Positions 1 to 64,000 of a stretch of DNA of 64,000 bases are shown piece by piece; positions within the stretch are counted from its first letter, which is position 1, and every line of letters starts with the position of its first letter. This DNA comes from Asterochloris sp. CNOR1 (Eukaryota; Chlorophyta; Trebouxiophyceae; Trebouxiales; Trebouxiaceae): assembly GCA_963969365.1 (NCBI GenBank), contig OZ017761.1:1860001-1924000 (forward strand), in the 5' to 3' direction. Made by a program: the position numbers and the translations under genes. Under the pieces are notes generated by a model. The model ran no database searches, was not told the DNA's origin, and saw only the letters and a program-made list of their open reading frames with translations.

Positions 1-3000
1 GGTCGGCTACGAGTAAGGCTGACCCACTGTGGGACAGAGCTGGAGCCGCTGGCAGCCTCGACGGCTGGCACAACTGAGCTTCTGGAGGCCCGTGCTAGCT
101 CCACTGCAGGCAAGTGTCTGACACACCTTTACATGTGCCTACAAGCTGCTGCAGGTATCGCCCCAGCTCATGCAAGAGCACAAGCTGCCAGAAGAGGCAG
201 TTGATGAGGCAGCTTGCACCTCTTGCTGGCTCCAGCAGAAATTGTGTGGCGCAATGGCATCCACAGCAGTGGCTCCTTGAAGCCGGCACTGTGACATTGC
301 AGTTTGAACATAGACATATGCACCTCTGCAGCCTGCCCATATGTGGCCAGGCAGTCATGACCGCTCAAGTGCCATGCCCCTTTATTCTCTGAAGGTGCTC
401 AAAGACAGGCCCAAAGCGACCTCATACCACCAGGCAGTCATCACACAGCAGCTGAGGCGCGCATGCATCAGAAATGTGCTGCCAAGAATGCATAAGAAAC
501 ACACCCACTTGCCAGATAAAGTGCCTAGCCACAGCAATCCGCGGGCATCCCACCTGGCAGCAGTCCTCTGCCTGTCAGGCTGCCTCTGGACTGACTGCTG
601 CAAGCGTCCGCGCTACGTGGCGTGACGCCCACTCCCCAAGTGCTGGCGCCACACATGCTGATTTGCTTCTCCTCTGCTGCAGCCTGCATGGGCACGGAGC
701 CCTGTGCTAGTGGTGGTGATGACAAAGACCAGTGGTGGTCAGGTCTGATGGGCTGCGTGTCTTGTGGACAGCAATCTGTTGGACAGCAGCACCTGGGAAG
801 GCTCAAGACCAAGCCCCCTGTCCCTGCGGCAGCGTCACAGTCATGGGGCACTCAGTGCCAGCTCAGATGGCTGCACAGCGCTTTGCAGGTGCCTGGTGCA
901 GCACCGTCCTGCAGAGCGGCACCATCAAGGCCAGGCCACGCACCCTGAATGCGATACCAGCACCTTGGCACCACAGAGGTGAGGTACTGCCACGGCGTCA
1001 GCTCACAGCATTCTGTCTCCTGATTTCAGAGACATCTGCTCACCTGTGCCTGGAATGCAGCGACACCTTTGGCACTGACCGCCTGCTCAGCAGGCTGCAC
1101 AGAACATGGCAGACATATGACACGCCGGGCCATGCTGTGCAGGCCTGCACACCTGTCCCTGGGGTGACGTCACAGCCCTGGCGCTCAGCGCCAGCTCAGG
1201 AGGCTGCCCAGGGTCTGGCAGGCGCTGCACGCGAGCCCTGCCTGGGCTCACGCAGGTGCCCCGCCGCACAGAAACCTTCATGGCAGCGGCTGCTGCCGCG
1301 GCCTGCTGGAGGCCGGCGTGGCTGCCGGTGCTGTAGGAGCGCCTGCAGCAAAGAGAGAAAGCAGAATGGTAGAGGGTGGGTTTCTGCTGAATGTGGCCCC
1401 GGAGCCAGCTCTGGGTCGCCAGAGCTTCTCGAGTGGCAGCATTGACCAGAGTCAGCAGTGTCTGCTGGTGGGGTGGCACCTTGTGTCTGACATGTGCAGC
1501 TGAGCAGCATTGGAGGGACAGAGCAAGACGCATGTGACTGGACGCAACCTTAGGCAGCCAGCGTGCAGGCGCTGCACCTGCTGGAATGCTGTCACGGCAC
1601 CTGCCCTGGTTGATGAGTGAGCCGGCAAGCGCACGAACCCCAGCAGCAGGGAGCTGCAAAAGGCAGGCACTGGCATGCGCATCCTGTTGAACCTTCAAGC
1701 AATGACTGGAAGCAAGTGCACCTGAGTTTTGTGTCATGAGGCTGCCAGCGAGATGACAATGCACAGGCCTACGCAGCATGGCAGCTGGACTGCGAAGGCC
1801 GCAAGAGATGTGTGCAGTGACTGCAGCACCTCCTCGCCTGCACACATACTGGGCCGCATTCAAAACTGCTAACATGATGGCTGAGAGTCTGCGCTGGTTC
1901 CCTCTCAGTAGCAGCACAGCAGCCGACCTGGACAGCAGAGGCCTGGCAGAGGCAGGCGTGCGCAGGGACTGCTGTCGCAGGAGCACTTCGCCTGCGCACG
2001 TGCTGGGTCGTGGCGGCAACCCGGACACAGCTGCTGCCCTGCCTGTGGGAGTGGCATGTGGTCTGGCTTCCCTTATGGTCAGGCCCTGGTGAGCAAGCGT
2101 CTCCAGCCCGGCTGAAGGTCCAGCGCTGGGTCGAGGAGTTGGCGGTGGCGCTTGGCAGGGGAACTTGAATGAAGCGCTGCCCCCTGTCCCTACAGACATG
2201 AAGGTGCACTGCATGTGGGGGCCCGGCAGATCTTTACCTGAGGCTTGTGGGCATGGGGAGTGCAGTGAATCTGGGTGCTAGTGCCTAGCATGACAGTGCC
2301 CTTCACCCCTTGTGCACGCATGACGGCACAGAAGCTGCAAACTCAAAGGGATGTAACCCTCTGCTGCAGGCAGGACGCCACTGTCACAGACACAGCCCTG
2401 CCATTCTGTGCTGCTTGTGAACAGGATTGCTCCCTGGTCGGCAGTTCCAGAGAGCTCAGCACAATAACTGAGGACTGCTCCCCCCGGCCAGCAGGTCGAG
2501 ATGGTGCAGCTCAGCATTCAGCAAAGCTTGCCAGAAGCTGGCAGGTCCCAAGGCCTCAGCGCATTCAGAAGAGACTTCCCACAGCTGACAGGTGCAAAGG
2601 GCTCAGCATAGCTCCAACAGGACACTGCTCACTCAGAAGCAGCTATTGACGGCTTGGCACAGCTGCCGAACAGAGAGCCGCACTTGCTGACATTGACAGA
2701 GGCTCAGCACAGCCTGTGACCAGGGGTGCACCCAGGTTCAACAGGCACCGTCTCACTGGCTGGCAGCTTCAGAGGGCTGGTGGGGCCGGTCATGTTGGCA
2801 GGCTGCGCCGGCAACCTTGACCCCAGATCGGCAGCTTTGTGGCTGCCTTTGGGCAGTGGAGGGCGCCTGGCCCTGGCAGGGGCTGTCGCCGGCTGCCCTG
2901 CAGACAGTGAGGCCGCCTGTAACATGTGCAATGCTGCCTGAGCAATGCAGAGGCTGTGGCAAGCATGCAGAGGCTGCCCCATCGGCAGTAAGGCCTCTGT

Positions 3001-4487
3001 CCAGGGCTGCGTCGCGTATCGCCTGTGCCCTGCAGAGACTGCTGCTGTAACATGCCACGAAAAGCTCATGTTCAAGTGTCGCTTTGACAGCCTTGCCTGT
3101 TGCTGGACGGCGCTCTGGGCTGCAGTCTTGATCCTGGCTGGGGCCTATCTGTGCTGCTGAAATCATGCCCAGGACCTCAACGCGTACCTCTCCCTGCCAG
3201 AAGCACCTGCAGAGCCAGCAGGCATGCCTTACACAAGCTAATCGAGACACAACATGGGTCTTGGGTTTACATGCCTACGAATGCACAAAACAGCAGCAGA
3301 GTGAGATGCTGTGCACCTTGTATCCCGTGAGGATGTTCAGAGCCGCTCAGGGTGTAGGCACCTAAGACTCAGACCTTGATGCATCCCACATTCACGCGTG
3401 ATACAGCAACTGTTTGCTTGAGGGCACCGTCACATACTCGAGCACGTTCAGTGACTCCATTGAGGATCAGACGTTGGCAAAAATTCTACATTTCTTATCC
3501 CATAGCCTCCCGCTGCACCTTTCTCTGCGTTGAGGATAAGAAGGCTGGGCCTGGAAGCGTGCCAGTGACCTTCTCTGGCAGTCGCCCAGGAGTCAGCAAA
3601 TCCTGAAGGCGCTGTGGAGCCGGCCCTGCATGCTGATGATGAACGCATGTCAGTCCATGCTCTAAGCCGGTGGGAGCAGCACCGTGCAGAGACGGGAACA
3701 GTTGCCGTTGGCTTGGCTTGACTCACTTAGGCCAAGCAGAGCCAGCTGACTGGCCCAATTCCAGGGTGCCCTTCACCTGGATTCATCAGAGGCCCCAATT
3801 GGTCAGGTGAGACATGTTGCAGGCCTGCTGACAGCGGCTGTGGCATGGTGTTCTGCACCCTGCATTGGATGCATGCCCATGCTCTGTCCTGTGTATGACA
3901 CCTGCGGTAGGCATGAACTGCGGGTTGACCGCTGAGCAAGTCGCGACAGCCCACATCATGTTGATGCAACTTTCGCTGTTTGCAGCCACTTGAGCTGCAC
4001 TGACTTTAGTCTGGCATCCCAGGGTTGGGAGCAGTAGACAGCTCCTTCCTGTCAGCCAGCTGAGGAACGCGGGCGAGCATGCAGGCTGGGTCAAGCACCC
4101 AGCAATTTGGCGGTGGGAAGGGCAACCTAGAGGGGCTCCCACAGGTGGGCGCTGTGCATCATCGTGCTCAGCAGCTTATGCGGTTGCAGATGCTCTTGCT
4201 GCAGTGCATGTGCATGAAGTAGGGGGCCTTGAGGGCCATGCCTCTCCCTGAGCTGCCAGCTTGCCTGCACTGTCCAGCAGGATGCATAGATTATGACTGA
4301 GGCCTGGCTGAAGGCCGGCGCATTGGCTGCAGCAAGCACAGCATGTGCATCAAGGCTGCTCCAGGAAGGCGTGCAAGCCTTCCCAGTACAGCAAGCATGC
4401 ATTGATTATTGAACAGCCATCTGCATCTCTGCAGCAGCTTCTTATAGCAGCCCTCCGGCTAACACCTGTTTGCTTGGCTGGCTGCAG
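1..4487. other. No supportable gene; intron-like or intergenic sequence with degenerate tandem repeats
   Basis: I found no conserved protein block on either strand. The sequence resembles the introns elsewhere in the window: GC-rich, full of CTGCAG and degenerate tandem copies. Between about 2450 and 2720 a motif like GGCTCAGCACAG recurs roughly every 50 bases. At 1826-1862 and 1978-2015 two similar blocks read roughly CCTCGCCTGCACA..ACTGGGCCG. The 5' coding exon of the GSK3 gene that starts downstream should lie here, but I could not place it. A minus-strand open frame at 1087-2214 contains the string RRSYSTGS, which resembles a mitochondrial presequence, but nothing else supports it. Confidence 0.4.
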
Positions 4488-9698
<5,211 letters not shown>

Positions 9699-10440: not shown

Positions 10441-13400
10441 TCATTTCTTTGTCTGGTTGGGACGGACTGCACCCAGCTTGAAGTCTCCAGGCATGGGTGC
10501 TGGCTGAGAGGCGGGCGCTTTCCCAGCAGCCTGCTGCATGCACAGCGGAGCTGTCAGCACCTTTACATATGGTGTGTAAAGTCTCACATGGTGTGCTGCA
10601 GCGCAGCTGGCAAGACGCAATCAGGGCCAGCTGCAGGCGCAGAGGTGGCCATCACACAGTGCACCCTGCTCACCGCCTTGCTTGCAGCAGCCGGGCTGCC
10701 CAGGGCCAGCTGTGAGCGCAGAGCCGCCACCTCAGATGCCAGAGAGTCGCGGCTGCTCCGGAGGGCCGTCACTTCCGCAGACGCTGCCTCCGCCTGCTGC
10801 CGCGCGTTGACTGCAGTGGAAGCTGTTCGCTGCAGGCGCTCAGCCACTGCCTCCACATCCTCCCCTGCAGAGACAGCTGCAATGCCTTTCTGCCAGGAGC
10901 AATGCAGTCAATCTGATGATGCAGCTCCATGTCACTGCAGCCCATGCTGCAGGCGCTCAGCGACTGCCTCGACACATTCTTCTGCGGAGGTGGATGTCTT
11001 GCATGATGGCAACAACTGCATCAAGTGATCAGACTCGTGTGATGATGTCCTGGACCTTGCAGATGCATTCCATTGCTCAGCTGCCTGCACATCCTATCCG
11101 GCAGCAGGGGTTGGCCGTCACGCATCAGGCTGCACCCTTTGATGCCCCCAGGCTCCAGCAACATGCGTGTATGACGAGACATAAAACACAGGTTGCACCC
11201 TGGTTTTGGAGCACCACCAGGCAATATGCTATACCAGCCAACAAAGGCCAGCACCGCGCAGAAGAGGTACCAACGTTGTGCCTCCTCCGACAATGCACCA
11301 AATCAGCTGCAACGGCTCCCAGCACAGCGCACACCTGTTTCAGCGGCAATTTTCTGATAGGCGGCCAGCAGCTTGTTGCGCTGCGCCTTCACCAGCTGGT
11401 AACGCTGCTCCAGTCCCCGATGTTCGTTGCCCAGGGCCTGCAGGCAAGCGATGGCTGAGCGTGTGAGTGTATAAGCGCTGCACGTCGCTTAAGACAACAG
11501 AGGCACTTATGATTGTCTGTCCATGCAATGGCGCTGAGGACCATGACCCACACCCTGCAGGCAGCTTTGATCTCAGAGCTGGTGACCATCTGCTCTGCAA
11601 AGTCTCCTCAGGTGGAGGCTGGCTGCTGCAGCCCCCAATGGTGGTTGCACATGGCCTGCAGATGGCACAAGGCAGCGACGTGAGGCGCTGGCTGGGTGAC
11701 CAAAACCCCGCTGGTCTTGCTGAGGGTCACCAGGCAACCATCAGAAACAGGGCAAGTGGCCTGTCCCCAGTGTTCTGCTGACCGCAGTCAGTGACAGTCT
11801 GCAATATCATTTTTGCCCAGATGGTTGGCGCCAGCCAGAAACAGCCTGAGGTGCGTGCTGGCTGCTCCAGCCCACAGAAATGCAGCTGTAGTGGCTCATG
11901 AAAATGTTGCCCAGAGTGTGCAGGCTGCGATGAATGACAGGCTTAAAGAATGCTTCAAGCATGGCCAGGCTATGTGCGCTGTTCAGGGGCAGCTGTCACC
12001 AGCCCCTGTTTACTGGAAAAAGTGAGTAGTCTCAGGCTGAGTGGATTGACTCAGGGGTGCCTGATGCGAGCATGCAGCCTGCCCTCTCTGGCCATCATGG
12101 CCACCCCGGGCGCAGTATGCTGACTAGGCGCAGCTGCTGATGTGATGTCAGCATGCAGGCTGCATGATCTGCCCATGCCCGGCACAATCTGCAGCCCAGG
12201 AGGCGGAGTACATGAGCCAAGGAAAGCATGACCACAGAGTCTCAGCTAAAATTCAGACTTGCTGACATGCAAATCGGTGAAGATGTAGGCTTGACAGCGG
12301 GTGAGTTTGCAGGCTGTGCTACGGCGATGGCTGCAGTGCAGTTCCTGACCTGCAGAGCCTGGTTGAGTTGCTGCTCCCGATGCCTCAGCTCTGCATTGGT
12401 GGCTGCCTGGGACTCGATGCGGGCCAGTGCACTCTCTGCATCCTCACCAGCTCCTGCAATACAGGTGAATCATCCATGTGAGATTTGACACCCATGGCGG
12501 GCCGCTCTTCAAGCTGCTGGCGATAGCTCAGGCAGGGAGGTGCAGTGGCCACTAGCCTGCCTTGCCAAGCAGCCCCTGCCTAGCCTGGCCTTCATACATG
12601 AGGCAGCTCGTCATGACAGGCTCCCGCTGGCTGAGATCACAGGAACAGCACTGGCAGCCCCTGTAAGGCCACCGCAGGGCATCCCTGAAGTGGACAGTGG
12701 TCTCAGCAGCCAGCCTCCATCCTCTCATTCTGAATGCAGAACAGGACAAAGGTGGCTCAAGCTGCAGCCTGTCACATGCAGGCATCAGGCGCTGCTGCTT
12801 GATGGCAACACCACTGGGGCCAAGTGTCCCAGGTGGCCCGGCTGCAACCCTGATGTGCATGCCAGCAGTTCCACCAACCTTGTAATCCCTCAAAGGCTCG
12901 CAGCAGGCGATTGCGCTGTCCCTGAGCCTGCTGCAGGCGCGCCTGCAGAGCCTCCATCTCTGCACGATGCTTCCGCTGCTCCTCCTCCATCTTGGCCTCC
13001 CGCTCACGCTGCAGCACACATGCAAGAGAGCTCAATCACTTGTCTGGGCTGCAGGGACAGACAACAGATGGCTACCTAGCATGTGGTGGTCGCAAACAGC
13101 CAGCTTTTGGACATTGGGTTGGGCCAGGCACAGGTAGCTTGGCAGTGTGCTTCAGCTGCAGCACTGATGCTACATCTTCCCTCAAGGTCCCAGGTGACAT
13201 TCTGAATAGTGATCTGCCTGGAGCATGCCAGAGCTGCAGGCACCAAGCGTGCTCCCTGCCTCGGACCCCAGCACACTGCTGACCTGAAGTGCTGCTGTCT
13301 GCGCCCCTGCGGCGCTGCGGCCGCTGACGCTGCTGCCCGCACCGGAGGCAGCCAGGTCATGCGTTCCAGCCCCAACACCCTTCTCGCGAGCCTGCATTCA

Positions 13401-16400
13401 CGGCGGGTGTCACGTGTGTATGCATAGCGCTGTAGGTGGGGGCCGCCACGTCATGCGCATTCCTCCCTCAAGTGGGCCAGCCAGAGGGATACGCTGCAAC
13501 ATCATTTGTGGGCCCTGACTTGTCAGGTGGACTGTTGAAGCCAGAAGCTAACCACAGCATCCTGGCTCAACTACAGCCTCCACTGGGCTGCCAGAGGCGC
13601 CAGCATCTGACTTTGCCGGGATTGCATGCCATGCACACCACCACTGCCCGGTATGCCTACAAGCTGCCGACCATCACCGTCCCCAGGGCTTGACAGTGAG
13701 AATGTTGAACAGCACAGATCAGTGCTGTACCTGGCAATGCAGACACGGTACTGCGCTCAAACACAGCCAGCTCCCACCATGGAGTCCAAGCGTGCAATGG
13801 CAGCCTCCACATCACCCTCAGTGGCAGCCACACGCTGCAGAACGCCGCTCAAGCGGTCCCGCTGCGACTCAGCCGCCCGCAGCTGCTGCTGCAGGCGCTC
13901 TGACTCTGCAGCTGCAGGGGCCTGGGCAGCCAGCAGCTGCTGCTGCAGCAGGGCACGCTCCGCCGCCTGGGCTGCCACCTGCAGCGGATTCAGACGCACA
14001 ACATCAGAGGGGTCAACGGCATCTTGTGGGCTCATGCTGCAGAGCTATGCTTGCCTGGATGTCGCCTGCACAAGTTGCACAGGAGCACATCAGATTGTGC
14101 TCAGTACTGCAGGGCAGAGCCCTCGGCCGCTGGTGCTGCCATGCTGCCTCATTGCGCCAGCCCTTGTTTGCACCACGGCTGAGTTCAAAGGTTTGTGCAT
14201 GCTGCAGGGCAGTCCTCATTGCCGCCTGGGCTGCAAACTGCAGCAACACAGAATGTCATGTACCAGGGGCTTGGCAACACCTATGACCTGTGAATCGGGC
14301 ATCTCCTGCAGGTCAGCGCCCTGGCCCTCCACTTACATGGCTGGCACCAGTACTCCACCCCGAGCAGGGATGCTGCTGGCAGTGTGCCGCTCCGGTTTCT
14401 GGCACTTGGGCAGCGCAGCGCTGCTTGGGTCCACGAAACAAGGTGTTCCGAGCGTCAAGTCACTCACCTGCTCCTCCAGGCGCTTCCACTCCCCTTCCTG
14501 GCGCTGCAGATGTTGTTGCCGAGTAGCGCGCTCCCTGGCCTGCTGGCGCTCAGCCTCCAGCTGCCCCTGAGCGCCCTGCAGCGCGGCCTGCAGGGCAGTA
14601 GCAGCATGCTTGGGCAAAGCATGAGAAAAGACTGCGGCAGTGACGCAAAGGTGCAGACTGACGAGCACAGAGTGCTATGGGATGGCCCCCTCTGCGCCCT
14701 GCAGCATGGCCTGCACAGAAACTGCCTGATGTGTGCTCTTCTGGCCTGGGATCCTAGTCGGTAGTGGCTTCCAGCTGGCACAGGTCCCCTGCTGCTCAGA
14801 TGCTGCCTGCAGCGTGGCCTGCATGAGACAGCGGACACAACAACAGCTAGTGCTGGGCAGGGAGAAGTCGGTGAGATGCTGCCTGTCTGCCCCTGCATTG
14901 TTGTCTCCCTGCCAGGCAAGAGCTTGCAAATGCAACAAGCCTGAAAGCAACACCAGGTGCGCGCAGATTTTGACAGACTGGTGCAGCCCCCCTTCAGTGA
15001 AGACTTCAGTTCCCCCCTTTCACTGAAGACTCTGTCGCTCTTAACATGGCAGTGAGCAGCAACTATGGTCAGCATGTGAGCTGCTGCAACATTGAGAGCA
15101 GGGTGAAGCTCCCGCATGCTGCCAGTCACCTGTGCCTCCGTCAGCTGCTGCCGCAGCCTTGCCACGGCTGCAGTCTGCTCTTCAAGCTGCTGCTGCTGCT
15201 GCTGCGCTGCGGCAGGGGCAGCAGCGGCTGCCTGGGCAGCCGTCAAACGGGCCTCACGTAGCTGCTGCTGCAGGGTGGCCCTCTCAGACTGCTCTGCCTG
15301 CATGGCACACTGCCAGCGATCACCAACGGACTGGGATGGGGCCGAAAAAGAGGTGGACTAGGTCTGTAGGCAAACTATGCACTCAAGGTCTACTGCATTC
15401 TGCTCCTGGACTGACGGACCTCCGGTCACTATCTCCAGCATCTGTACAGGGTGTGCTTCAACAGGGCTCATTTGCAAGCAGCCCTCTGGTCAGCAACTGA
15501 ACTCATCACCTTTACAGCTCCTCCAGCTGCTGCTGCTGCAGGGTGTGCGCCAAGAGGTCTCTTAGTTTCTGAATGTGTCCGAGGCAAAATTATATGATAC
15601 AATGATGTCACTCACCTCCAGCTGCTGCTGCAGGGAGCGCTGCTCTGCCTTCATGGCAGCCTGGGCCTGCATCTGCTGCCGTTCCCCTGCGCGGGCAAAT
15701 GTCAGCTGCTGCTGCAGACGCGCCAGCTCTGCTTCCACACTGCTCCTGGCAGCGCTGCTTCCAGACAGCTGCTCCTGCAGCCGTGCACAACACCAATGGG
15801 TTCTTCAGGTGTCAGCAGCAGCTTATGCAGCACAGTCTGCAGGTCCTGAAGGGTTGGCCACTGCGCAGCTTTCCTGCCTGCATCTGGCAGACGCAGGCAT
15901 GACCGTGCAGGTCAGCAAGAGCATGTGCATGTTGGGAGAGATGAACTGTGCAAGAAAGGTGCCTCCTCATGCATATGTGCATTGTGCCCAGGCGCCCTTC
16001 TGCAGCATTGGGGTCACCTTTGGCATGAAATGGTGGGCCGCTGCAGCACTGATGCCCTGCCAGTACAGGCTGTGAACAAACAAGACAGCAGCTCAGGTGC
16101 TGTTGGTACCCCACTGTGCACTTGTGGGGCAGGCAACAGTGCTGCTGGCAGCAGCTGCTTGCCCAAGCACAGGACTGCACAGCGCAGGGCGGGTACCTGC
16201 AGGGTGGCAACAGCAGCTCTGGCGCTCTCCAGCTGCTGCTGCAGGGCATGAGCTTCGGCCTCCCTCTCGGAAGCCATGGCGGCCTGCTGCTGCCTCAGTT
16301 TGACCACATCTGCCTCCCTGCCCTGCACGGCTGCTTGGTGCCGCCTGGACTGCTCTTGCAGGGCAGAGTGGGTGCCCTGCAATGTGCAAAGCTCCCCCTG

Positions 16401-25038: not shown

Positions 25039-25216
25039 CTGTCAGCATGAAACACACACGGAGCTGCTGTGCTGCTGGATGCCTGCCAATGAGCAGCAGC
25101 AAGGTCCCTGGCGTTGCCACCTGACTTGTGGACCGCCACTGAAGGCATGTCTCCTCCTCAGTGCCAGCGGGAAGGTTTGTGGTTAGCGCACAAAGGTTCA
25201 GTGCATGCCTTCTGCC

Positions 25217-46035: not shown

Positions 46036-47422
46036 CTGCAGCAAGGCAGTTGGGTCTGAAAGTGGGCCACAATGCTGAAGCCGCCTGAGACAGACATCAG
46101 GCAGGACGTGTCTCACAAAACAGGGCGCCTGCTTTCAATGAGCACAATGGGTCTGAAGCTAGCTCAATGGCGCACAGCAGCCGGTCATGCAAAGGGCGCC
46201 AGCATAGAACACCAGCGCTGTGAAGTAGCACTGGTTAAAGAGCAATAGCATTTGGGGGAGTTGAATAGCCAGTCACTACATACCTGACTTCCTGGGCAGC
46301 CTGGGATCGCATGAAGCCCCAACAATGCGAAATGCAGGACGCTGGGCTGGCCCTGCCAGAGGACAGTTTCTGCAATGAAGATCTGATGTAATCCGCAGCT
46401 GCCCTGGCATCATAGAGAGCACCATGCTGTTTGGGAGGTTTTGCGATCTAACCTGATTGTGTCAGTGTCACGCATACAATCTGCGCGAACTGGTCACAGC
46501 AGAGGCTTTCTGCATGCAATTGCACACTACACAATCCTCCAGCATGAAGCTCTGCATCACTGTCGAGAATATGCAGTGCCTGTGCATTTGGAGCTTGCGC
46601 CCTTCGCTCGTACATCATGTCCAAAGGTCAACGTGCTACTTGAGAGGCTGAGCAGCCTCAGGTTGGCCTGAGCAGTTCATGAATTACCTCCGGCATCAGC
46701 ATTGCGCATTGTGAAGGCAACTCCCCGCTGTGGAGTGCGGCATGCAGACAGCGGCCGCTGTGTTGTGCATATCCACAGCGGGCAAGGCCGCTGCGCTACA
46801 CCAGTGTCACAATCAGCTGAAGGGCACACAACTATGGATCGCTCCGTGTGCAGCTGGCCGACGCATCCTTGAGCTGTTGACTGAGCTTGTGGGAGCCCTC
46901 CAGTTCAAGTGGGACCGTGCCTCACCAGAGCATCTTCATGGTGCTCAGGAGTGAAGAGTGTGAGGGGAATTGGCCTCTTCTGTGTGCTTGGGAAGGCTGT
47001 GACAGCAGACCACAATCTGCTGTTGACAGAGGTGAGCTCAGCCTCGTCGTCTCAAGCAGCGAGTCTGCTGCTATTGTGAAATGGCAAGTGCAATGTGTAC
47101 TGTAGACAAAACAACTCAGTTGCCTCCCCAATTGCGAGTCAAGTCACCCAAGCTGCTGGTCCTCTCACAGAGGTTACCTTTGTTCAGCAGCAATTCTCTG
47201 GCTTGCCTCGGCAAGCACTTGTGCACAGAGGTCTGAAAGCGCAGGGCTGAGAGGCCCACAGTGCCTAGAGAGATTCCCAGCACCATGCTGCGCATTGCCA
47301 TCAGGCAGGAGGAGACTGATGCCGCCAGGGCTGGTGTGACAAGGGCCCTGATGGGGAGGGCAGCAAGAGAGTGCTGTGTCTGTTTTGTATGTGCACATTA
47401 CGTGACGATTGTAGCAACTTGT
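46036..47422. other. Intergenic region; chlorophyll synthase 5' end expected here
   Basis: The promoter, start codon and first transit-peptide exon of chlorophyll synthase should lie in the left part. No exon could be placed with confidence. A minus-strand string near 46640-46700 (NLRLLSLSSSTLTFG) is reminiscent of a leucine-rich repeat and may be a decayed relative of the fragment at 47423-47929. Confidence 0.35.
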
Positions 47423-47929
47423 TCAATCCCGTATACCACTTATGCAGTGTTCATGCATGACATTGAGGTGACGGCGGGATGGAACAGCAGGTTCACCTGG
47501 TGAATGGCGAGTCCATCTGATGTGTGTGATCTGATACTGACATTGTTGAGTGTCCTCCGCGCTCTCTTCGCTCCTGACAATGTGGCCACCAGCAGGGAGA
47601 GCGAGCTGGTCTACATCAACGGAGTGCTTTCGACCTTCACATATCATGGTGATGGAGCTGAGAGAGGGGGGGAGCACCTCGGGGTTGAAGTTGTGGATCT
47701 TGTCAGCTACCAAAGACAGGGTGTGCAGGCATGTGAAGTGAGCCAGGGTGTTAGGCGGTTCGAAATCAACGTGATATGCATACAGATCGAGCTCCTGCAG
47801 TGTCATCGCGACGGAGGACACAGTCTGCAAGTCTTCTGTCCACGCGCGCAGGTACAAGAGAGCAGGCAGCTGGGGGAGGGGGGGCTTCCTTGAAGAACTG
47901 ACTTGTACTACTGAAAACATTTCCTTCAA
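47423..47929 (-). CDS. Leucine-rich-repeat-like protein fragment
   Basis: A 168-codon open frame has spaced leucines in the pattern of plant-type LRR proteins: LPQLPALLYLRAW, MTLQELDLYAYHV, FTCLHTLSLVADKI and LPPSLSSITMICEG. The stretch from about 47540 to 47920 looks coding; the Arg/His-rich end after about 47500 may already be intron. No F-box or kinase domain is visible nearby. At 48181-48483 another minus-strand open frame (..ALNVMHEAPG..) shares the short string LNVMHE with the end of this one, so the area may hold duplicated pieces of one gene. Start, end and intactness are unknown. Confidence 0.4.
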   Translation of the reverse strand: MKEMFSVVQVSSSRKPPLPQLPALLYLRAWTEDLQTVSSVAMTLQELDLYAYHVDFEPPNTLAHFTCLHTLSLVADKIHNFNPEVLPPSLSSITMICEGRKHSVDVDQLALPAGGHIVRSEESAEDTQQCQYQITHIRWTRHSPGEPAVPSRRHLNVMHEHCISGIRD

Positions 47930-48802: not shown

Positions 48803-48820
48803 GCCTGTCAACCTTTTGGA

Positions 48821-49184
48821 ATCTAGACAGAAAAGGCTTGATGGCATGGCAACTGAGTGCTGCAAGGATTCGTGCTGTACTCATGTTGCAGTCAGCATCA
48901 ATTGGAATGAGAGGGGTCGCAGAGTCAGGCAGACTAGGCGAAGAGTGCTGCAAGTCAACTGCAACAAAGAAGCCGTGACCGCCATACTGGCTGTCCTGAT
49001 GAATCTAGACAGAAAAGGCTTGATGGCATGGCAACTGAGTGCTGCAAGGATTCGTGCTGTACTCATGTTGCAGTCAGCATCAAGTGGAATGAGAGGGGTC
49101 GCAGAGTCAGGCAGACTAGGCGAAGAGTGCTGCAAGTCAACTGCAACAAAGAAGCCGTGACCGCCATACTGGCTGTCCTGATGG
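48821..49184. repeat. 182-bp near-perfect tandem duplication
   Basis: The unit starting ATCTAGACAGAAAAGGCTTG at 48821 is repeated at 49003 with almost no differences (one clear change, CAATTGG to CAAGTGG). It begins 18 bases after the tRNA-Gln. The unit is not a multiple of three, and no frame in it resembles a known protein. Such high identity means a very recent duplication or a local assembly artefact. Confidence 0.93.
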
Positions 49185-49666: not shown

Positions 49667-52600
49667 ATGGAGGGCACTGGCCTGGACAATGCCACCAGGC
49701 TGTACAGGATCCGCAGGACCTGCAACGAGATGCTGGCAGACAGGGGCTATGTCATTGGCACTGTAAGCAACATCACAGAAGGGCAATGTGCTGCGTTCTG
49801 CTGCTGCACACCCTGTGCTGCAGTGGCCCCCGCTGATACCCATTGCAGATGTTTTAGAGGTGTTGTGTGCCAATGTCAGGACTCTGGCGGCTAGTTTGGG
49901 TTGTCCATCCTCTCATAAGATCGGTTGTTGCACACGTTGAGCTGCAGCTTGAGACACAGCGCGAGGGCAAATGCTGCCATGCAGCCCAGCATGGCAGAGG
50001 ATTTGCTTCCCGCAACTGTCGATTTCACTTGCCATGCATTTACAAGCGCACCGCCGTCCAACCTCCAGCAGGCTGATGTTGTGCAAAACCTTACAACAAA
50101 ATTTGTGGTATTGTGATCTGCCTGCCAGCATTGTCCCCTCACACGCGATCTGCAGGATGAGATGGCGCAGACCTTGGACGAGTTCAAAGAGAAGTTCACA
50201 GAGGAGCCCAAGCGTGAGGACCTGTCGCTGCTGTGGCCCCACAGTGACGACCCCTCCGACCAGGTGAGGCTGCAACAGTGTGCACATTGTCCAGGCTTCT
50301 GGCGGCCTGGTCAGCTGTTACCCCCCTTGCTGGTGGCATGAGCCACAGGTCAGCTTTTGCCCCCCTCCTGGTGGCATGAGAGCCACAGGTCAGCTTTTGC
50401 CCCCCCCCTCCTGGTGGCATGAGCTAGAGGTCAGCTTCTGCCCCCCCTCCTGGTGGCATCAGCTATAGGGCAGAACCTCTCCCTGCTGTAGCCCCACAGC
50501 GATGGCGCCACTCTGACCAGGTGGGGCTGCAGGCGTGCTCATGACACATGTGCCTGCCGTGTTCCCTGCTGAGCCTCCTGCACCCCTCCTGATGTGAGCT
50601 GCAGCAGGACGTGCTGCAGCCGCACAGCATGACTATGTGTCCAAGGAGACTGGAGGGTGCTCCAGACTGCAGCTGCACCACACCCTGCACGGTTCATCAT
50701 TTGACCAATGTCCGCAGCCCAACCCTGACAAATGCCATTTGCCAGGGATAGCAGGTCTCAGTCCAAGCACTAGTTGCCCCCGTGGGGCTCAGCATTTGGC
50801 CCCACAGCCTCCTGCAGGCGCTGCTGCTTTGTGCCCTTCCCCTGGTCGCTTGTCTGCATGAGGGTATGGTGCAAGCTGTGCCCATACCTACTGACAGGGC
50901 CTAGTGCTGGTGTGGCCGCAAGCAGCACCCTTTCAGACCAGGTGAAGCGGGAAGATGCCAACAAGCATTTGGTGAGGCAGGGGGGTGTGCACAGCCCACA
51001 AGTGCTCTGTAAATCAATTCAAGGCCTTGCACCCTTTGTGGTGTGAGCTGCAGCATGGCAGGGCTTGCTGAGTCCCCACAGTCACGACATCGCTCCAAGG
51101 CCAGGCAGATGACTTACGGTATCTGCGTTGGCACTCCTGTACTCTGGAGCGCTGGCCTGCACTCCTCATGGTGTGAGCTGCGGCAGGGCAGCAGTGCAGA
51201 GCCACAGTCATGCATCTCGTGGCATTGGCTGTCCAGGGGCTGGCGGCTAACATATACAATGCCTGCATCAGCTGGGGTATTGCCCACACCCCCTGCATAG
51301 CTCAAGGTGTGATCCCGTGCCCGCCCCAGCCTACACCCGCAACATCATGTTAGGTTGCAGAGTCCCATGGGCCCCTGCTTGGGTTAGAGCCTGCCCGCCC
51401 TGCATGTCCTTGTGTGTGAATCTGGCAAGGTACACGGCAGGGTTGCAGTTTTGTGCAGATCTCAACATCCTGCCAACATGGCGCTTTGGTCAAGCATCCC
51501 TGCATGTCCATGTGTTTGCCTCTGCCAAAGCACACGGCAGGGCTGGGGTCTCCTGCAGACCTCAGTGTGCCGCTGCTTAGGGCAATGCCTGAAGCTGCCT
51601 GCACCTCTTCAACTGAGATGCCATCAGGGCTGCACTACCCAACAATATGTACCCTCCCTGCATCCACAAGCTGTGCGCTGCTGCTCCCTGCAGGCCTTTG
51701 AGCTGTGCTCTTCAACAGGTCAAAGGTGCTCAGCCCTTTGCCATGAAGCTCTTATAACACCTGAGCGTTCTGTAGCTGCAGATCTCTGTGCCCATGCTGT
51801 GGAATCGCGACCCTGCCTTACATCTTGCTTGGAGCCAGGCCACGCAGTCTGAGCCACCGCTGACCTGCAGATCTTTGTGTTCTTCCCCTCCGATGCCAAG
51901 GTGGGCGTGAAGACCATCAAGACCTATGCGGAGCAGATGAAGAGCGAAAATGTGCACCGCGCCATCCTTGTGGTCCAGGCCGCGCTGACTGCCTTTGCCC
52001 GGCAGGCCCTGGCGGAGCTGTCATCAGCTGGAAAGTACCACATAGAGCAGGTGAGGCCAGTCGATGAAGGTTACCCTGCTGTGAGGTGGGGTTGATGACT
52101 CCATCATGTGCCAGGCGGTTCTGTCAGGAACAAGCTTTGGCCAGGGCGGCAGATGAGGCTGCTGGTCACAGCTGATTTGAGCCGGCAGCATGCTGGCAAG
52201 TGTGTCTCCAGCAGGCGGGGCTTGCAGTGATTGGTTTCAATCTATCACCAGGTGGGATCCACAGTCTGGGTGGGTGCGGGCATCTGATGCAACTTGCGAC
52301 TGCAGTCCTGTGTGAGCTGTCAGCAGCAACCAGGCCCTTGCAGACCTGTCACAAGCCTTTAAGGACGAGACTCGTTGGGTCAGGCCTTGTGGCGCGCCTG
52401 TGGGGTCTCTCACGTGAGCTGTGACACCTGCTGTCCTCAGCTGGTGGCCACAGCACAGAGCAGGTGGGGCTGGAGGCAGGCGGCTGCTCCCCTGCAGGAC
52501 CGAAGGTTGAATACATTGCAGGTTGTCTGCCACTGGCCGCAGCAGCAGACAGGCACATGCCTGACACCTACTTCCGCAAAGCAGGCCTGCTGTACCCCTG

Positions 52601-53441: not shown

Positions 53442-56400
53442 CTATGCTGCCACCGCCTGCTTCTGCTGCCTTGTGGCACCGTTTGAGTGAGCTGGGCTTT
53501 TGCTGTTCTTGATGCCACGGATGGCTGCAGGCAGGGCAGGAAAATGTCAGAAGTGGCTAAGGCTACGCAGCGCAGGCAGCAGAAGAGAGCTTGGCAAAGA
53601 GGCACAGCAATTGTCGCACTGCACGCCTAGCTCTGCGAACAACAAGTGTGCTAAGTGCATCTTTCCTTGTACAGGCGGTGCATGTCTGCTGGTAACAACT
53701 CTGCATCCTGCAGGCACTGTCAAACACAACAAACCTTCTGCATAGTCCTTGGCGCCAAATACTGCTGACCCTGCAACCAGTGCATTTGCGCCGGCCTCGA
53801 TGACCTGCAAGAGACAGATGAGATGTCAAAATGATGCTTGTTGCAAGAGCGAGGAGGCCATGCAGGCAGTCATAGTCTGTCTCGGACAAGTCTGTTGCAA
53901 AGAGGCCAATTCAAGTGCCCCTGAAGAGTCAGGCAAACGCAACCGCACAGGCACTTGACCAGGCAATCGAGGCACTCAAAAGGACCGTGCACTATGTTGC
54001 TGCAGAGTGTGTGCTGTCCTCCACATGGCCCACCACAGACATCTGCCTCAACTGGCAAGCAAAGGTACAGACTTCAAAATCAGCCTAGTCCAAAGCTATC
54101 GCACCTTGTAGGCATTGGCAGGGCCCACGCCGCCGTCCACCTCGATCCATGGATCAGCCCCCTGCTCATTGCACATCCTGCGCAGCTCCCGGATCTTCTC
54201 CACCTGGTACTCAATGAACTTCTGGCCGCCAAAGCCGGGGTTGACTGCAGACAGAGCGGCAGGACAGGGGACTCAGCCAGCTACCAGATGCAGCATCGAT
54301 GTGGCAGGCTTCCCTGCAGGATGGCCAGCGACCCGATGCACCACTGATGTGGCAGGCCTCCCTGCAGGATGTTGCCTGCACAGGCCCTGAGATGCAGCAC
54401 CCACCCTGGCAGGCAAAAGTGCCTATGGTAACACATGCACTTCAAAGGACAAACAGGGTTTAAGACTCACCGCTCATAAGCAGGATGAGGTCGACCTGGG
54501 AGATGACATACTGGATCGTGCTCAGGGGGGTGGCAGGGTTCAGCACCACACCAGCCTTCACGCCCAGGTCTTTGATCTGCAGCAGGACAGCCGCCTCAGT
54601 CAGAAAATGCACTGCAGCATGGCAAGGCTCTCTCTTGAAAGGAGTCGCAGTCGCAGCCACACTTCTGGCCGTCACCACCCTCTACTCCCTGACCTTCAAT
54701 CTGCAGCAGAGATGGCCAGGCCCCCATTGAATGCACTGCTGTATGCCAAGAGGCCTGGGTGACTGGGTTGCATTGCCATGCCACTTGCAAAACATGCTTT
54801 GCTTGGCATGGGTATTTGGTGACTCAGTAGCAGGTGGCGCTGCAATCTCAGCCCCTACAAAACAGCAAAGCGGCTGTCAGTGTCGTACACGGCCAGCCAG
54901 GAGGCACATAGCACGGCCAGAGGCCGGAGAAGCCAGTGATCTGCACATGGCCAAGGTCTGAGCTTGACCAGTGCACAGCGCTTGCTGGCGATGAGCACCA
55001 AGCCAGTCAACTCCACACAGCTGAGGAGCTGCCAGACATGCAAGGCACTGCTGTGCTGGCGGATGTACATGTATGCCCTGCCTCAGCAGCTGATTGTGAG
55101 ACAGCCTTGACAGCCACCATACTGGCCACAGCAGGTGACCACCACAGCTATCACCGCACTTCATGGCCTTACCACCTTCCTGACAACCTCACACCTGACA
55201 TCACACATCCTCACAGCGATGCCCCAGCTCTCAAGATCACTACCCTGGCCCCACCTGGTTGACGACACGGTCCAGGTGGATGGTTGACCCCTGCTCGCAG
55301 TGCACGCTGATGATGTCGCTGCCTGCCTTGGCAAAGTCCGCCACCCTCTGCTCGGGTTCCACAATCATCTGCAGGGGGCAGGCGGCAGGGTGTCAGCACA
55401 TCAGTCACCAGAGTCCATCTGGGACATCACACTGGCGCTGCTGTGAGACACCTGGCGGGGCAGGCAGCAAAGAGTCAGCACATCCGGCCACAGCAGGGCC
55501 GGCGTAGGTGCCAGGGAGCAGCATCTCTGTATCACCGCCTGTCTTGCAGGGATCCCTGCCGCGGCGGTCAGGCTCCACACACATCTGCAGCAGGGAGTTG
55601 ACCCAAGCAGGCCACAGGACCTCTGAACGCTGGTCAGGGGCAACCCCGTACAAACAGTGCCTGACAGCAGCCAGTCTGAGGCTGCTGCTGAGGGTCCACA
55701 GTCATCTGCAGGGGCAGACAGCAGTGGGTCAGCCCCATCAGGTTGCAGTACCTCTCAGGAGCACCACCCTTGTGCGTCGCCTCAAGTGACACCACTGCTC
55801 AGGCTTCACAGTGGTCTGCAGCGTCAGCTGGGGGATGCTGTTAGGCCTGATCCATTGCATATCAGTGGACTGGGAGTGCTACCAGCAGTGGCCATCTGGC
55901 TGCAGTGCCAGGTGTGCTCAAGCCAGACACCACGCTGTGTGATGCCCAGAGCGCAGCTGGCTCACAGCTGGTTTTGTAATGACATACCAGTGTGCGCCAC
56001 AGGGCTGCCATCAATCCTTTTGGGCACTGAGCGCAGGGCATGGGTCTTACTTCTGATTCACTGTGGCCCTTGTCTACTCATTACAGCCTACTCTACAGGG
56101 GTAGCTTGCAAGCATGTCACAGCGGCCCCTGACCTCCTCAGGGCAGATGTCTGGGCTGGCACTCAGAAGGGACGTCATGCTCAGCTCACCAGGTGGGTGT
56201 CGATAGGCTTGTCTGTGAGCGGCCTCAGCGCGTCCACCACCAGAGGGCCCTGAGAGTGCAACAGCCACTCAGCAGCTTGCCCTTGAGGACATGTGCGACA
56301 GACAATGCAGCATACAGCCCTTCATACGCATATGCTACAGACCCTGGCAGTGGCCAGTAGCCACAAAGGGCTGCTGCAGACGGTGGCAGCCAGCAGACAA

Positions 56401-57028
56401 GACAACAACCAGCCAGTCATCTTCAAAATACGACTGAGAGCTGCTTTCTGCGCTCAAAGTGCGGCGATGCTCAACATCTCCTTGATAGCAACAGGTCGCT
56501 GGCCCTCAGGTGCACAGCAAGGCTCCTAGAGGTGGTTGTGACATGTGTGCATCGCCCCCAAGCAGCACAGCAACCCAGCCACTGCCCCAGGCGCCTCATA
56601 CTCACAATGGTAATGTTGGGCACAAATCTCCCATCCATGACGTCCACGTGGATCCAGTCTGCCCCGGCCTTGTCAACGGCTTGCACCTGCGGAAGGACAG
56701 TCAGCCCTCAACATCACCACATGAGCAAATGCCTGCCTGTCTGTGAGCCGTCCATTGCAGGCGAGCGAGTATCCAGAATGAAATCCAGAATAATCATTCT
56801 GCGCCGGTGCATGCCAGCAGCGAGCATGCTGCACCAGACAGCAGCCTGCGCAGATGGGCTTGGCCTTCTCACCTGCTCGCCTAGCTTTGCAAAGTTGGCA
56901 GACAGAATGCTGCAGAGCAAGGGCACAACCTTCAGCCCAGCACATAGGTGAGGATGTGAGCAAGCTCGTCACAAGAGCAGGAGCGTGGCGCTTACCTTGG
57001 GCTCACAATGATATCGCTCTTGCTGAAC
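53442..57028 (-). CDS. RPE: Ribulose-phosphate 3-epimerase (5' end open)
   Basis: This TIM-barrel enzyme interconverts ribulose 5-phosphate and xylulose 5-phosphate in the Calvin cycle and pentose phosphate pathway. Nine exons join in phase: 56996-57028, 56873-56909, 56606-56686, 56190-56249, 55255-55368, 54471-54576, 54105-54244, 53735-53804 and 53442-53524. They cover the whole barrel. Key blocks are [93 protein letters not shown] and [19 protein letters not shown]. The metal/active-site His and Asp of HVDVMDG and the catalytic Asp of EVDGGV are present. The last exon adds a non-conserved Gln/Ala-rich tail ending KQAVAA. The residues before FSKSD would tell plastid from cytosolic form, but that exon was not found. 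It converges on RPB5, with 287 bases between stops. Confidence 0.95.
55345..55825 (-). repeat. Three decayed copies of an RPE exon start and acceptor within the upstream intron
   Basis: The exon 55255-55368 begins, on the minus strand, with CTGCAG then [12 protein letters not shown]. Upstream in the same intron three more CTGCAG junctions are followed by related codons: near 55561-55595 ([11 protein letters not shown]), 55681-55720 ([10 protein letters not shown]) and 55795-55825 (TTVKPEQW). Spacing between copies is about 120 bases. They are not usable exons but clearly derive from the exon edge. Confidence 0.8.
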
Positions 57029-57487
57029 CTGCATGGCGGCACTGGTGCATTGGTGCAGGGTCATCACAGGACGCTGCTGTCTGCAAGGCAAGGCCAGTCT
57101 GTGCAGCAAGGACAGCCAACTGCACATGGGCCGGAAGCTGCCTCACTTGTCGACCCTTGAGGCATCTCCCTTCGCACACACGTGCACTGCCCTGCGGCCA
57201 GTGCTGCGGCCAAGGCTCGCCCTTGAGGGCACCTGGAGCCCAGCAACTTGCTTATTTCCGAGAACGTGCTGCTGAGTAAATGTCATAGCTGATCTGTGAA
57301 GACGGTGTCGTGACAGCCGCAGGCAAGTTTGACAAAGTCTATGAGTTTTTCTTTTATTATACAGACGGAAAGCCTGAAGGTTTGGGTCCCAAGCAAGATC
57401 ATGTGAAGTAGTTCAGGGAGACTGAGAGAGATTTGAAAGGACGAAGGCCAAAATGATCACGTTCTGTCTGCATTCCTCCTGTCAGCA
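57029..57487. other. RPE 5' region and 3' flank of the PLAC8-like gene
   Basis: The missing first exon of RPE may lie at about 57050-57290 on the minus strand, where an open frame contains MPQGSTSEAASGPC, but no phase-checked junction was found. The stretch 57300-57460 is AT-richer and likely untranslated. No other gene seen. Confidence 0.35.
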
Positions 57488-59884
57488 TCACTTGTACATG
57501 CCCTGCTGCTGAGGAGGGTAGCCTTGCGGCGGGTATCCTCCTGGGCCACCATATCCCTGTGGCTGTGGTGGGTACCCTGCAGTGGGAGCTGGGCCATAGC
57601 TGCCCTGGGGTGCGCCTGGAGCAGGAATGGCCTGCTGCATAGGCGCCTGCATGGGGCTTGGGGCGGGTCCGCCCTGGCCGCGCTCGCGGTCCCTCTTGTC
57701 CAGCTGCAGCTTGTGCTGCGTTTGCATGCAGGCACACACGCTGCGGGGGCAACATGACAGCATGTGAGAGCATGCTGCACAGCTTCGGCATTCTCCTTGC
57801 GCAAGCAATCAAGAGCATGCTCTTGCAGGAGGCAGGCATCAGACTTCACAGACTCAGGGGCAACTCACAAGCATTGCAGCTTGGAGCGCAGCTTGACTGC
57901 CTCCCAGCATCTAGAGCACGCTAGGCGGCGGAAGGCGCAGCTTGCTGCATGCACAAGCATGCAAAACTAGCACCGGCAGCACAACTACATACTCACGTGC
58001 ACCACACAACCTGAGCAATGTTGTCAATGCAGTGCGCCAGCTCCGCGATCTCCTGGCTGCCAGACAAGCATGCCGCAATGTTGCACTGCACAGCAGGGGC
58101 CACCAACGTTGAGTGACAAGCATGCAGGGGCAGCCAGGCTGGGTGGCAGTGCCATTAGGTTTCACAGCTCAGCAGACAGCACCAAGGCAGTGTGACAGGA
58201 CACACAAACAGCACAGGGAGCAAGTCAGGGGAGCAGGCAGATCTACACTGCCCTGGCACAATAGAAACACGCTCTGCAACAATGGTGGGCAGGACGTGCT
58301 CGCTGACAGGCACTGCAGTGCCTACAGCAAGCCACGCAATATGCAGAGCAGATCAGTCAGGCAGGCTCACAATGCAGGCCAGGTACTGCAGCGCCACCAT
58401 AGTACCTGCAGCAACGCACGGGAACACCTCAAGCTCTGGTTGGTGGGGTGACACCGACACAAGCGGAACATGAGAGCTGACGGCAGGCTCAAGTGCTGGA
58501 TGCAAGCCTCAGGGCACGTTTGGTCATGTGAATGCATGTTGAGCCATTGCACCCCAGCAGGCCATGGCACTAGGCTGCTGTCCTGCGGGCATGCGTTGGC
58601 ACTCACTGATCAGGCAGTTGTCACAGGGAGTGTTCTGGACACGCTGCTCGTCCTGAATGCCCCACCGAGTCGATGCCACCTGCACCAAGAGAGAGAACAC
58701 ATCCAGAGTCCGAGGGCCACAGTGAGTGGGCATGGGACTGACCATTCACATGATAAGCACATCTGCGGCCAAGCTTGAGAGATTGGGCTTCTGACCGCCA
58801 GCCAAGCACACACTGCGACCACCTCCCTTACTGCGAGGTGCTCCAGGGCAAGCAAGCGATCATAAGCAGAGTATGGCCATCACAAGGCACCCTGCTGCGG
58901 GGCTCTCACCGACTGTGTGAAGCAGAAGAACACTTCCATGCACAGACAGAACTCTGGGCAGCTGCAGGGCACGCCAAGTTTGTGAGCATGGCATTCTTGG
59001 CATAAGGTACACACAAAAGGGAACTGGGATCTGTTGGTTACCAGTCCTGCTTAGAATTTACAGTCTCTCACCTCTGCTCTCCCATACGCCCTGAGCAAGG
59101 ACAGTCGCCATTGCAGCAAACATATCTGCAAAACACAGGCAAGGACAGCCCTGTTGTGTCAGATGTGTCATGGCGAAGAGCAGCACCCTGCCAACCATGC
59201 ATGGCAGCACCTGGTCGCAGATATGCTGCACTATGTCAGATGTCAATGGGCAGCTGTGGGGTGTATGTTGACTTGTAGGGTTGGCCCCTCTTGCAAGAAT
59301 GGCAGCAGGTTGTCTTCGCAACAACATCTAAACAGAAGACCAAGCTGGTTGACAGCTCTGAATCAAGCAGAATTCCAGGGACCACGACAGCAAGATGCTC
59401 AGCAGAAGTGCTGCACCAGATTTCTAGTTCACGCAAGCAGACGGGCAATGTTTGCACAAGGCTGCACACTGTTTGGTGCCCACCAGCCCTGCCCTCACCT
59501 TGTCATGTCATGGTAGATGAGCTGCTTGCGCAGCAGGTAGCTGACGCAGTATGGGCAGGCGGCACTGAGCAGACAGTCTGCAGCATAAACAGGAGTGGTA
59601 ACATGACTTCAGGCTGTATAGGAAGGAAAAGCAAGACGCTCAATGAACATGCTGCTTACAGCCAGGTGATGCGCAGCAGGCTGTCTTGAGCTCTGTCACC
59701 CAGCCATTTCCATACCTGCAAGCAGCAAGACAGCGATGAGCTTCTTGGATGGTGGGCCCAATGCAAGGTTTATCAACAAAGATTGGACGCACAGTCGAAT
59801 GGATGCAAGGAACACTCACTGGTTCTTCCTGACATCGTACTGCTGGTATTTCTTCTGCTTGAACTGACTCTGATTGTCAAACAT
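57488..59884 (-). CDS. Cysteine-rich PLAC8-like protein with Gly/Pro/Tyr-rich tail
   Basis: Nine exons join in phase: 59820-59884, 59660-59715, 59499-59577, 59072-59125, 58910-58961, 58607-58679, 58371-58405, 57997-58085 and 57488-57740, coding 251 residues from MFDNQSQFKQKKYQQYDV. The order of Cys blocks resembles, from memory, plant proteins annotated as PLAC8 family: GNGWVTELKTACC, CLLSAACPYCVSYLLRKQ, RYVCCNGDCPCSGRMGEQ, SCPEFCLCMEVFFCFTQS, STRWGIQDEQRVQNTPCDNC and VVWCTVCACMQTQHKLQLDK. Related proteins are Cys-rich and thought to sit at membranes; the molecular function is not established. The last 50 residues are a GYPPQPQGYGG-type tail like those of Gly/Pro-rich proteins, with GYPPQ motifs, ending QQQGMYK. 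It is transcribed away from NSE1. Confidence 0.8.
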
Positions 59885-63420: not shown

Positions 63421-63609
63421 ATGCCCTCAGTGGCTGGCACAGTGGGCGCCCTCAGCCGCATGCTGACCGGCATGGTCACCATGGGAGCCTACAGAGCAGT
63501 GCTGGGGTGTGCCAAGCCGACGGCCTCTGTGGCCACAGAGCCCCCGCCACGGACGCAGGTGGCAGTCGACATCAAGCCCCTGCAGCAGCTGGATAGCATT
63601 GTGCATGTG
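63421..63609 (+). CDS. Possible first coding exon of an unidentified gene running off the window
   Basis: An ATG-led frame of 63 codons, MPSVAGTVGALSRMLTGMVT.. to ..LQQLDSIVHV, ends exactly at a GTGAGT donor. The N-terminus is hydrophobic with Arg and could be a targeting sequence. I recognise no family. Its last 17 codons are echoed twice, in decayed form, in the following sequence. That is what is seen next to genuine exons in this window and mildly supports it. Confidence 0.4.
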
Positions 63610-63926
63610 GTGAGTTTGAGTGATAGGGAAGTGGGGTGCGGGCCGTGAAACGTGCATCTGGCTTGCTGCACTTCTTGCCATGGCCAGGTGACGGTATACA
63701 CCAAGTCCCTGCAGCAGTTGGACAGCAGCATGCAGCACTGTGACGTTTTCAATGCAAGGGTCTAGGGGCTGGAGGTCGCAGTCTTGTCTGCAGCAGCTGA
63801 AGTGCATCCTGAACATGAGTGTGAGGGCACCTTGACCGTGCACAGGGCTGGCCTGCAGCCTCATGTGGGCAGGTGGCAGTTGGCAGCAAGTCCCTGCAGC
63901 AGCTGGACAGCATCTGGCTTGTGGTG
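63559..63926 (+). repeat. Three related copies of an exon end
   Basis: Segments at 63559-63612, 63688-63740 and 63872-63926 each start CAG|GTG(G/A)CGGT-like and share a core AAG(C/T)CCCTGCAGCAGCTGGA then CAGCAT. The first belongs to the possible exon 63421-63609; the other two are diverged. They may be decayed copies or small alternative exons. Confidence 0.8.
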
Positions 63927-64000
63927 TGTCCACAGGGGTGGGGCTGGCTGCAGCTTGCTGGAACAGATGCTCTCCCTCTGTCAGGCCTGCCTTCCAGGGG

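Follow-up and report, generated by a model that had tools for sequence, protein, structure and literature searches.

In a 64,000-bp window of the genome of the trebouxiophyte green alga Asterochloris sp. CNOR1 (the whole stretch analysed, positions 1860001-1924000 of contig C16) and on two further contigs, introns carry degenerate copies of the edges of their own neighboring exons. These exon-edge copies are real and frequent, and they are quite probably the decaying relics of ordinary local tandem duplications that occur throughout the non-coding DNA of this alga. The genome comprises 56.4 Mb in 21 contigs, and its size, GC content and number of introns per gene are close to the values printed for Asterochloris glomerata (PMC6652019; here and below, published work is represented by excerpts of the cited articles). 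The GC content across the window is 55-64% in 4-kb steps. Gene models were computed with an unsupervised gene-finding hidden Markov model (HMM) trained on 264 kb of contig C16. At convergence it described 37 genes with 584 exons (median 95 bp), a median intron of 240 bp and 25.5% coding sequence, with the splice consensus CAG/GTGAGC at donors and CTGCAG/G at acceptors (the slash marks the splice site). Six window genes were assigned to Pfam families, namely protein kinase (GSK3), fatty-acid hydroxylase, UbiA (chlorophyll synthase), RPB5, ribulose-phosphate epimerase and Nse1. These matches, together with an alignment of the kinase to a solved structure, support the HMM models of conserved genes. 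The genes of contigs C5 and C9 were predicted with the model trained on C16 only, and exons shorter than 25 bp were left out of all tests after gene modeling.

The first test compared each exon edge with its adjacent intron, using as thresholds the scores passed by 0.2% of swapped introns. Matches were found at 28 of 298 donor-side and 26 of 302 acceptor-side edges. The corresponding counts were 1/298 and 1/302 for the same introns reverse-complemented, 4/651 and 5/663 for non-adjacent introns of the same gene, and 4/1490 and 11/1510 for shuffled introns. The excess was repeated on the other contigs, where 7 of 165 edges (C5) and 19 of 158 (C9) were matched, together 26/323, with 16/4693 for swapped and 1/323 for reverse-complemented introns. 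In the final set from all three contigs, which leaves out paralogues, repeat-family genes, the array gene g19 and the coiled-coil model g30, a significant match to the own adjacent intron was present at 72 of 777 exon edges (9.3%). Swapped introns gave 30 matches in 9235 comparisons (0.32%) and reverse-complemented own introns 3 in 777; the excess over swapped introns is about 29-fold. Copies reside in 68 of 431 introns, spread over 24 of 39 genes. A sequence-only reading of the window had described degenerate copies of own exon edges, one to three per intron, on both strands and at donor and acceptor sides, and these counts confirm it. That reading would have fallen had introns resembled their own exons no more than random exons; all the swapped, shuffled and reverse-complement controls were far lower. 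The excess persisted after g30 and g19 were dropped, and an artefact of coding repeats was consequently rejected. Within the window without g30, a copy scoring at least 84 was present in 11 of 48 introns and in 5 of 8 gene models; in g30 outside its 14.0-23.4 kb segment, 10 of 49 edges had a copy scoring at least 92. By alignment score, 6 of the 9 window models carry copies, and BLAST pairs add two more, such pairs extending to exon edges in g33 and g36. The tally, on our own gene models, is in line with the "at least seven genes" proposed from the letters.

The copies are contiguous with the exon edge, because exon sequence 60-120 bp inside the edge was matched in only 1 of 213 cases, as compared with 41 of 350 for edges with equal targets. 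Alignments reached to within 5 bp of the edge in 64 of 72 copies; as chance alignments of like queries did so in 120 of 228 cases, this figure taken alone is only moderately telling. The spacing between edge and copy has quartiles of 101, 133.5 and 179 bp (range 61-923, 72 copies). Direct repeats contiguous with the junctions support local tandem-type duplication across exon-intron boundaries, with survival of the products in introns, as originally suggested. The additional idea that the process is systematically aimed at exon edges found no support. When 60-bp queries and 240-bp targets were used throughout, local direct copies were present for 35 of 731 intron windows (4.8%) and 18 of 348 intergenic windows (5.2%), as compared with 11-12% of edges. 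Because duplication of this kind is shared by introns and intergenic DNA, the data do not require exon edges to be hotspots. The surplus at edges, net of the null, is about 2.8-fold (62/533 edges vs 63/1390 non-coding windows at scores of at least 90). Power curves that assume a 130-bp unit give an expected ratio of edges to non-coding DNA of about 1.4 at a constant rate, and a higher one if the events are old. A boundary hotspot, though conceivable, is not needed, given that decay on one lineage as opposed to two can account for the surplus. Local pairs were direct in 264 cases and inverted in 10 (the coiled-coil gene and arrays included). Tandem Repeats Finder detected arrays with units of at least 40 bp in both introns and intergenic DNA; in three arrays the identity is 99-100%. 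A young intergenic duplication lies at 48819-49183 in the window, consisting of two 182-bp units with a single mismatch (99%) and one shared base at the junction; it shows what such an event looks like, outside genes, before decay.

Duplication of a segment that straddles a donor site would leave the first copy as the exon, while the second, made up of exon tail, donor and some intron, would land within the intron; an acceptor-side event would be the mirror image. The mRNA need not change, and such an event could become fixed, while duplications within exons would mostly be purged. The intron would gain one unit, and the copy and its decoy splice site would then decay neutrally. Exon and relic would diverge on one lineage and pairs of intron relics on two. 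Exon edges would stand out because the exon is conserved and old duplications stay visible. The molecular cause is likely the end-joining of staggered breaks with fill-in, judging from two 99% duplications and from what is generally known of break repair. This is preferred over homology-driven slippage because the junctions of those two duplications have one shared base.

The lengths of the introns agree with growth by tandem duplication. The median length in the final three-contig set, from which 31 introns scoring 80-90 were left out, was 485.5 bp with a copy (n=72) and 300 bp without (n=323). After subtraction of the repeat spacing, the median of copy-bearing introns was 312 bp, not different from that of copy-free introns (p=0.58). 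Longer introns are easier targets, a caveat to be set beside the mere 4 reverse-complement matches scoring at least 90 over the three contigs. When only introns of at least 270 bp were considered, the difference persisted (507 vs 403.5 bp, p=0.0003). Copies therefore probably lengthen introns by about one repeat spacing. The proposal that introns here lengthen by local tandem duplication is thus supported, short of proof, by a surplus length close to the spacing.

The clearest set of edge copies in the window is found in the gene for a GSK3-type kinase (4079-9478, plus strand; Pkinase, E=3.1e-60), modeled with 11 exons. The donor-side edge 5160-5216 of exon 5046-5219 has a copy at 5292-5348 (spacing 132, score 114, 67% identity). 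The acceptor-side edge 7425-7476 is copied at 7247-7297 (spacing 178) with a decoy CTGCAG, whose position weight matrix (PWM) value is 12.3 bits as compared with 12.8 for the true acceptor. Three copies of the donor-side edge 7546-7591 lie at 7644-7687, 7745-7795 and, weakly, 7981-8014 (scores 123, 86 and 71); the decoy donor of the first has 8.0 bits vs 10.5 for the true one. Two copies of the donor-side edge 8272-8331 are located at 8377-8423 and 8450-8509 (scores 109 and 136), and the decoy donor after 8423 has 10.4 bits vs 12.0. The acceptor-side edge 8761-8804 is copied at 8664-8705 (spacing 97, score 104) and the donor-side edge 9138-9172 at 9271-9307 (spacing 133, score 96), all on the plus strand. 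The gene finder placed a spurious 9-bp mini-exon (7679-7687) on one decoy copy. In the one PDB alignment printed, to 8qcw_A, residues 14-372 of the 384 of the predicted kinase are aligned, and the only insertion in the prediction is one of 3 residues at this mini-exon; on the side of 8qcw_A there are three short insertions, each of 1-2 residues, at other places. The mini-exon was accordingly rejected as a real exon and taken as a gene-finder artefact.

Values such as these, with some decoys near the true sites, are one argument that the copies are functional, that is, decoy splice sites or alternative exons kept by selection. Identities that cluster at about 73% could be read in the same way. 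However, the decoy splice dinucleotides survive at the neutral rate only. Of the decoys, 14 of 26 still have their GT and 15 of 24 their AG, a per-base retention of 0.75 and 0.79, while copied exon bases are retained at 0.67-0.79 depending on codon position. The sequence-only reading therefore overstated the matter in saying that the copies keep their splice dinucleotides, although it was right that they have lost their frame, as gaps break it in 40 of 54. Decoys are presumably ignored by splicing or little used. A family of four tandem genes of 8-9 kb at C16:1708331-1744937 (L005-L009), for one member of which (g5) the first 400 amino acids gave no Pfam match, has introns that can be aligned, with 73-79% identity outside exons, and is useful to date intron events. 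Relics are present at 2 of 40 edges; one is shared, at identical alignment columns, by three paralogues and the other by all four. The shared relic columns are slightly more alike than other intron sequence (0.808 vs 0.750, standard deviation 0.062), a point for function, but 15% of random block sets score as high, so that in this one family, with two blocks, there is no significant constraint. A functional role for the copies is, on this evidence, improbable.

The ages of the copies raise a different question. Copy identity ranges from 66 to 87% with a median of 73% (72 copies). Almost no edge copies exceed 85%, although tandem duplications of 99-100% identity occur elsewhere in the same DNA. 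A mixture fit placed 28% of edges (confidence interval 23-34%) at t=0.38 substitutions per site, and a fit with a narrow age beat constant-rate fits by about 20 log units for edges, by which a strictly constant duplication rate was rejected. The direction was the same in a further fit, which took in 533 edges together with 1390 non-coding windows. The fits used all edges, paralogues kept, with swapped introns as the null, and own scores were shifted up even in low bins; the fitted edge fractions may thus be overestimates. The 1/-1 BLAST scan overlooked at least one close pair (41951/42032), for which reason ages were not drawn from it. A past burst or a later slowdown fits the ages better than a constant rate, and most events presumably stem from an older period of higher activity. 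We tentatively raise the stronger and rather doubtful proposition that a past burst (or recent near-stop) of tandem duplication of about 60-350 bp hit around a quarter of exon edges, the relics of which, at 0.3-0.46 substitutions per site, form much of the present intron length. If true and common to other green algae, it would offer a tangible reason why their introns are so oddly long.

The same gap might be produced if young copies diverged unusually fast, by mutagenic copying or repeat-directed mutation, and slowly thereafter. This explanation has about as little to recommend it as selection on the copies, perhaps slightly less. In its favor, no exon-edge copy is above 88% identity, and since the four-gene family split, one datable paralogue-specific insertion has come to be 72% like its source while the introns of the nearest paralogue are 79% alike. 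That insertion is the one internal paralogue-specific segment of at least 25 bp, and it is a copy of its flank; three singleton segments of that size were found in all, two of them at alignment ends, and five segments absent from a single paralogue only are deletion-like. But the insertion at 72% is one event only, its identity lying about 1.4 standard errors below expectation, and tandem duplications of 99-100% identity are present in mostly intergenic and in intron DNA. Nor is there a directional substitution bias besides CpG. Changes from exon to copy comprised 309 transitions and 310 transversions; CpG to TG was raised (27/113 vs 65/714 for other C to T changes), with no other strong bias. 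Hypermutation resembling repeat-induced point mutation was set aside, as the spectrum is ordinary except at CpG.

Three observations weigh against the interpretation of the copies as relics of ordinary local tandem duplication. A steady neutral process predicts more young copies than the 1 of 72 with an identity of at least 85%. In addition, homology continuing into the intron past the splice signal reached the 95th percentile in only 6-7 of 48 matches, as compared with 36-76% when tandem duplication and decay on two lineages were simulated at the age of the real matches, the range depending on score and settings. Such homology is clear in single alignments, and its overall weakness may come from large indels, from intron parts that are short or from a greater age of the copies. 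Finally, the gene models are computed and not based on RNA.

The duplications might alternatively belong to intron creation, in which an exon segment containing AGGT is duplicated as in the Rogers/Hellsten model (as presented in PMC3443670 and PMC4974935). This link, drawn in the sequence-only reading, is very unlikely. The class of event is the same, local tandem duplication with AG/GT sequence, and AG/GT and CTGCAG motifs occur in the copies. In the in-register test, however, intron 3' ends resembled upstream exon ends, and intron 5' starts downstream exon starts, in only 3 of 238 cases at each end (1.3% vs 1%). The signature of the model is thus absent, and AGGT intron creation was rejected; moreover, the copies lie within introns, half of them at a distance of 101-179 bp from the edge. 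Tandem duplication is, according to a 2012 review (PMC3443670), the only proposed mechanism of intron gain shown in vivo, and potato offers a case in which duplication across a boundary gave rise to an intron (PMC4974935). In that case, in an RNA-dependent RNA polymerase (RdRp) gene, the duplicated segment likewise extends over a junction of intron and exon that was already there and takes splice signals with it, but a new spliced intron was verified there by RNA and phylogeny, while here the copies stay within one intron, decay and are frequent across genes. The same article reports an 83-bp tandem duplication inside an intron. Novel intron positions in Drosophila, ascribed to tandem duplication or sliding (PMC2891723), share with our case partial exon duplication, proto-splice sites and conserved genes; they differ in that five probable cases among 31 near intron pairs concern new positions, whereas only copies within existing introns are seen here.

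Tandem exon duplication (PMC9013439) also places exon-derived sequence beside its source, but here one exon edge is matched and most copies are out of frame. The copies did not qualify as whole-exon copies with an open frame and both splice sites, 40 of 54 having gaps off multiples of three (the queries were exon edges only). Introners (PMC9860276) similarly bear on algal intron content; they form dispersed families, whereas these copies match their own neighboring exon and swapped introns are at chance level. Cross-gene intron pairs numbered 91 among 516 introns, and the best 25 of the 91 are accounted for by one dispersed repeat and by two gene families, one arranged in tandem and the other repeated. 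Judged by titles and the beginnings of abstracts, none of the literature matches listed was a systematic survey of exon-edge copies in introns. Last among the alternatives, chance or the CAG/CTG-rich composition of exons and introns is scarcely credible as the source of the similarity: the swapped, shuffled and reverse-complement controls are above zero and, on the donor side at lower thresholds, the own reverse complement exceeds the swap (7.05% vs 5.0%; 2.0% vs 1.06%), but the 29-fold excess, the low counts for reverse-complemented and for same-gene non-adjacent introns, and the contiguity with the exon edge all speak against it.

If the copies are relics of local tandem duplication, intron growth has a relic that can be counted, as one end of it is a conserved exon, which provides a test for long algal introns in any annotated genome. 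Chlamydomonas and its relatives, a group other than that of this alga, have unusually long introns with no short-intron peak, of unknown advantage and with a driver that is probably ancient (PMC8226300). Exon edges would further serve as a one-lineage clock for local duplications that are otherwise unreadable, and the decoys, a series of naturally occurring near-matches to real splice sites, could be used to study how the spliceosome ignores them.

Copies were also located in other genes of the window. In the chlorophyll synthase gene (41347-47806, minus strand; UbiA in Pfam, with homologues named chlorophyll synthase, among the best named matches Trebouxia at 83% over 75% of the query and Myrmecia at 81% over 77%), the acceptor-side edge 41961-42020 is copied at 42042-42100 with 87% identity, the highest in the list of window copies. 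The region 41951-42119 is a plain head-to-tail duplication of an 81-bp unit, the first unit having 70 exonic and 11 intronic bp, and an older copy lies at 42173-42252. A second acceptor-side edge of the minus strand, 44574-44606, is copied at 44664-44698 (spacing 92). In the ribulose-phosphate 3-epimerase gene (53442-59111, by Pfam), the acceptor-side edge 54552-54611 is copied at 54676-54735 (minus strand, score 102). The RPB5 gene (Rpb5 in Pfam) has a local copy of the boundary segment 50217-50287 at 50472-50542 (plus strand, spacing 255, 77%). On the plus strand, the donor-side edge 39151-39196 of the fatty-acid-hydroxylase family gene (37245-40757, by Pfam) is copied at 39361-39408 (score 97), and the donor-side edge 39866-39910 at 39950-39992 (score 91). 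In model g28, on the minus strand, the donor-side edge 1044-1094 is copied at 818-870 (score 89).

Model g30 (9517-35493, minus strand) contains a long coiled-coil region of tandem coding repeats and is probably more than one gene, merged. Its acceptor-side edges 10829-10863, 11378-11437 and 27233-27287 are copied at 10946-10982 (score 132, 86%), 11592-11655 (score 115) and 27337-27391 (spacing 104, score 203, 85%), respectively. The segment 29290-29327, which ends 16 bp before the acceptor-side edge 29343, is copied at 29519-29556 (score 109). Donor-side edges 30417-30465 and 33723-33776 have copies at 30273-30321 (score 110) and 33622-33675 (spacing 101, score 104). Four more copies in g30 lie at 32002-32047, 24851-24896, 14196-14236 and 10603-10655, also on the minus strand.

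Other kinds of repeats were observed on the contigs. Outside the window, C16:1800607-1802120 (L015) holds an array of some 12 units, each 106-113 bp long and containing a GTG run of variable length; in the gene models every unit becomes an exon of 45-51 bp plus an intron of 61 bp. These exons are doubtful, because their lengths stay multiples of 3 through triplet variation of the GTG run. A repeated gene family occupies C16:1781933-1791185 and 1816635-1819847; the pieces of DNA that align between g14 and g21 are 85-91% alike, and the introns of g13 and g14 match at 87%. The first 400 amino acids of g21 gave no Pfam match; judging from a motif, this family is possibly a mobile element of the tyrosine-recombinase kind. 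A 251-bp element, 98.8% identical and inverted, is common to single introns of two genes, g25 on C16 and gene 1 on C5, and is a young dispersed repeat inside introns.

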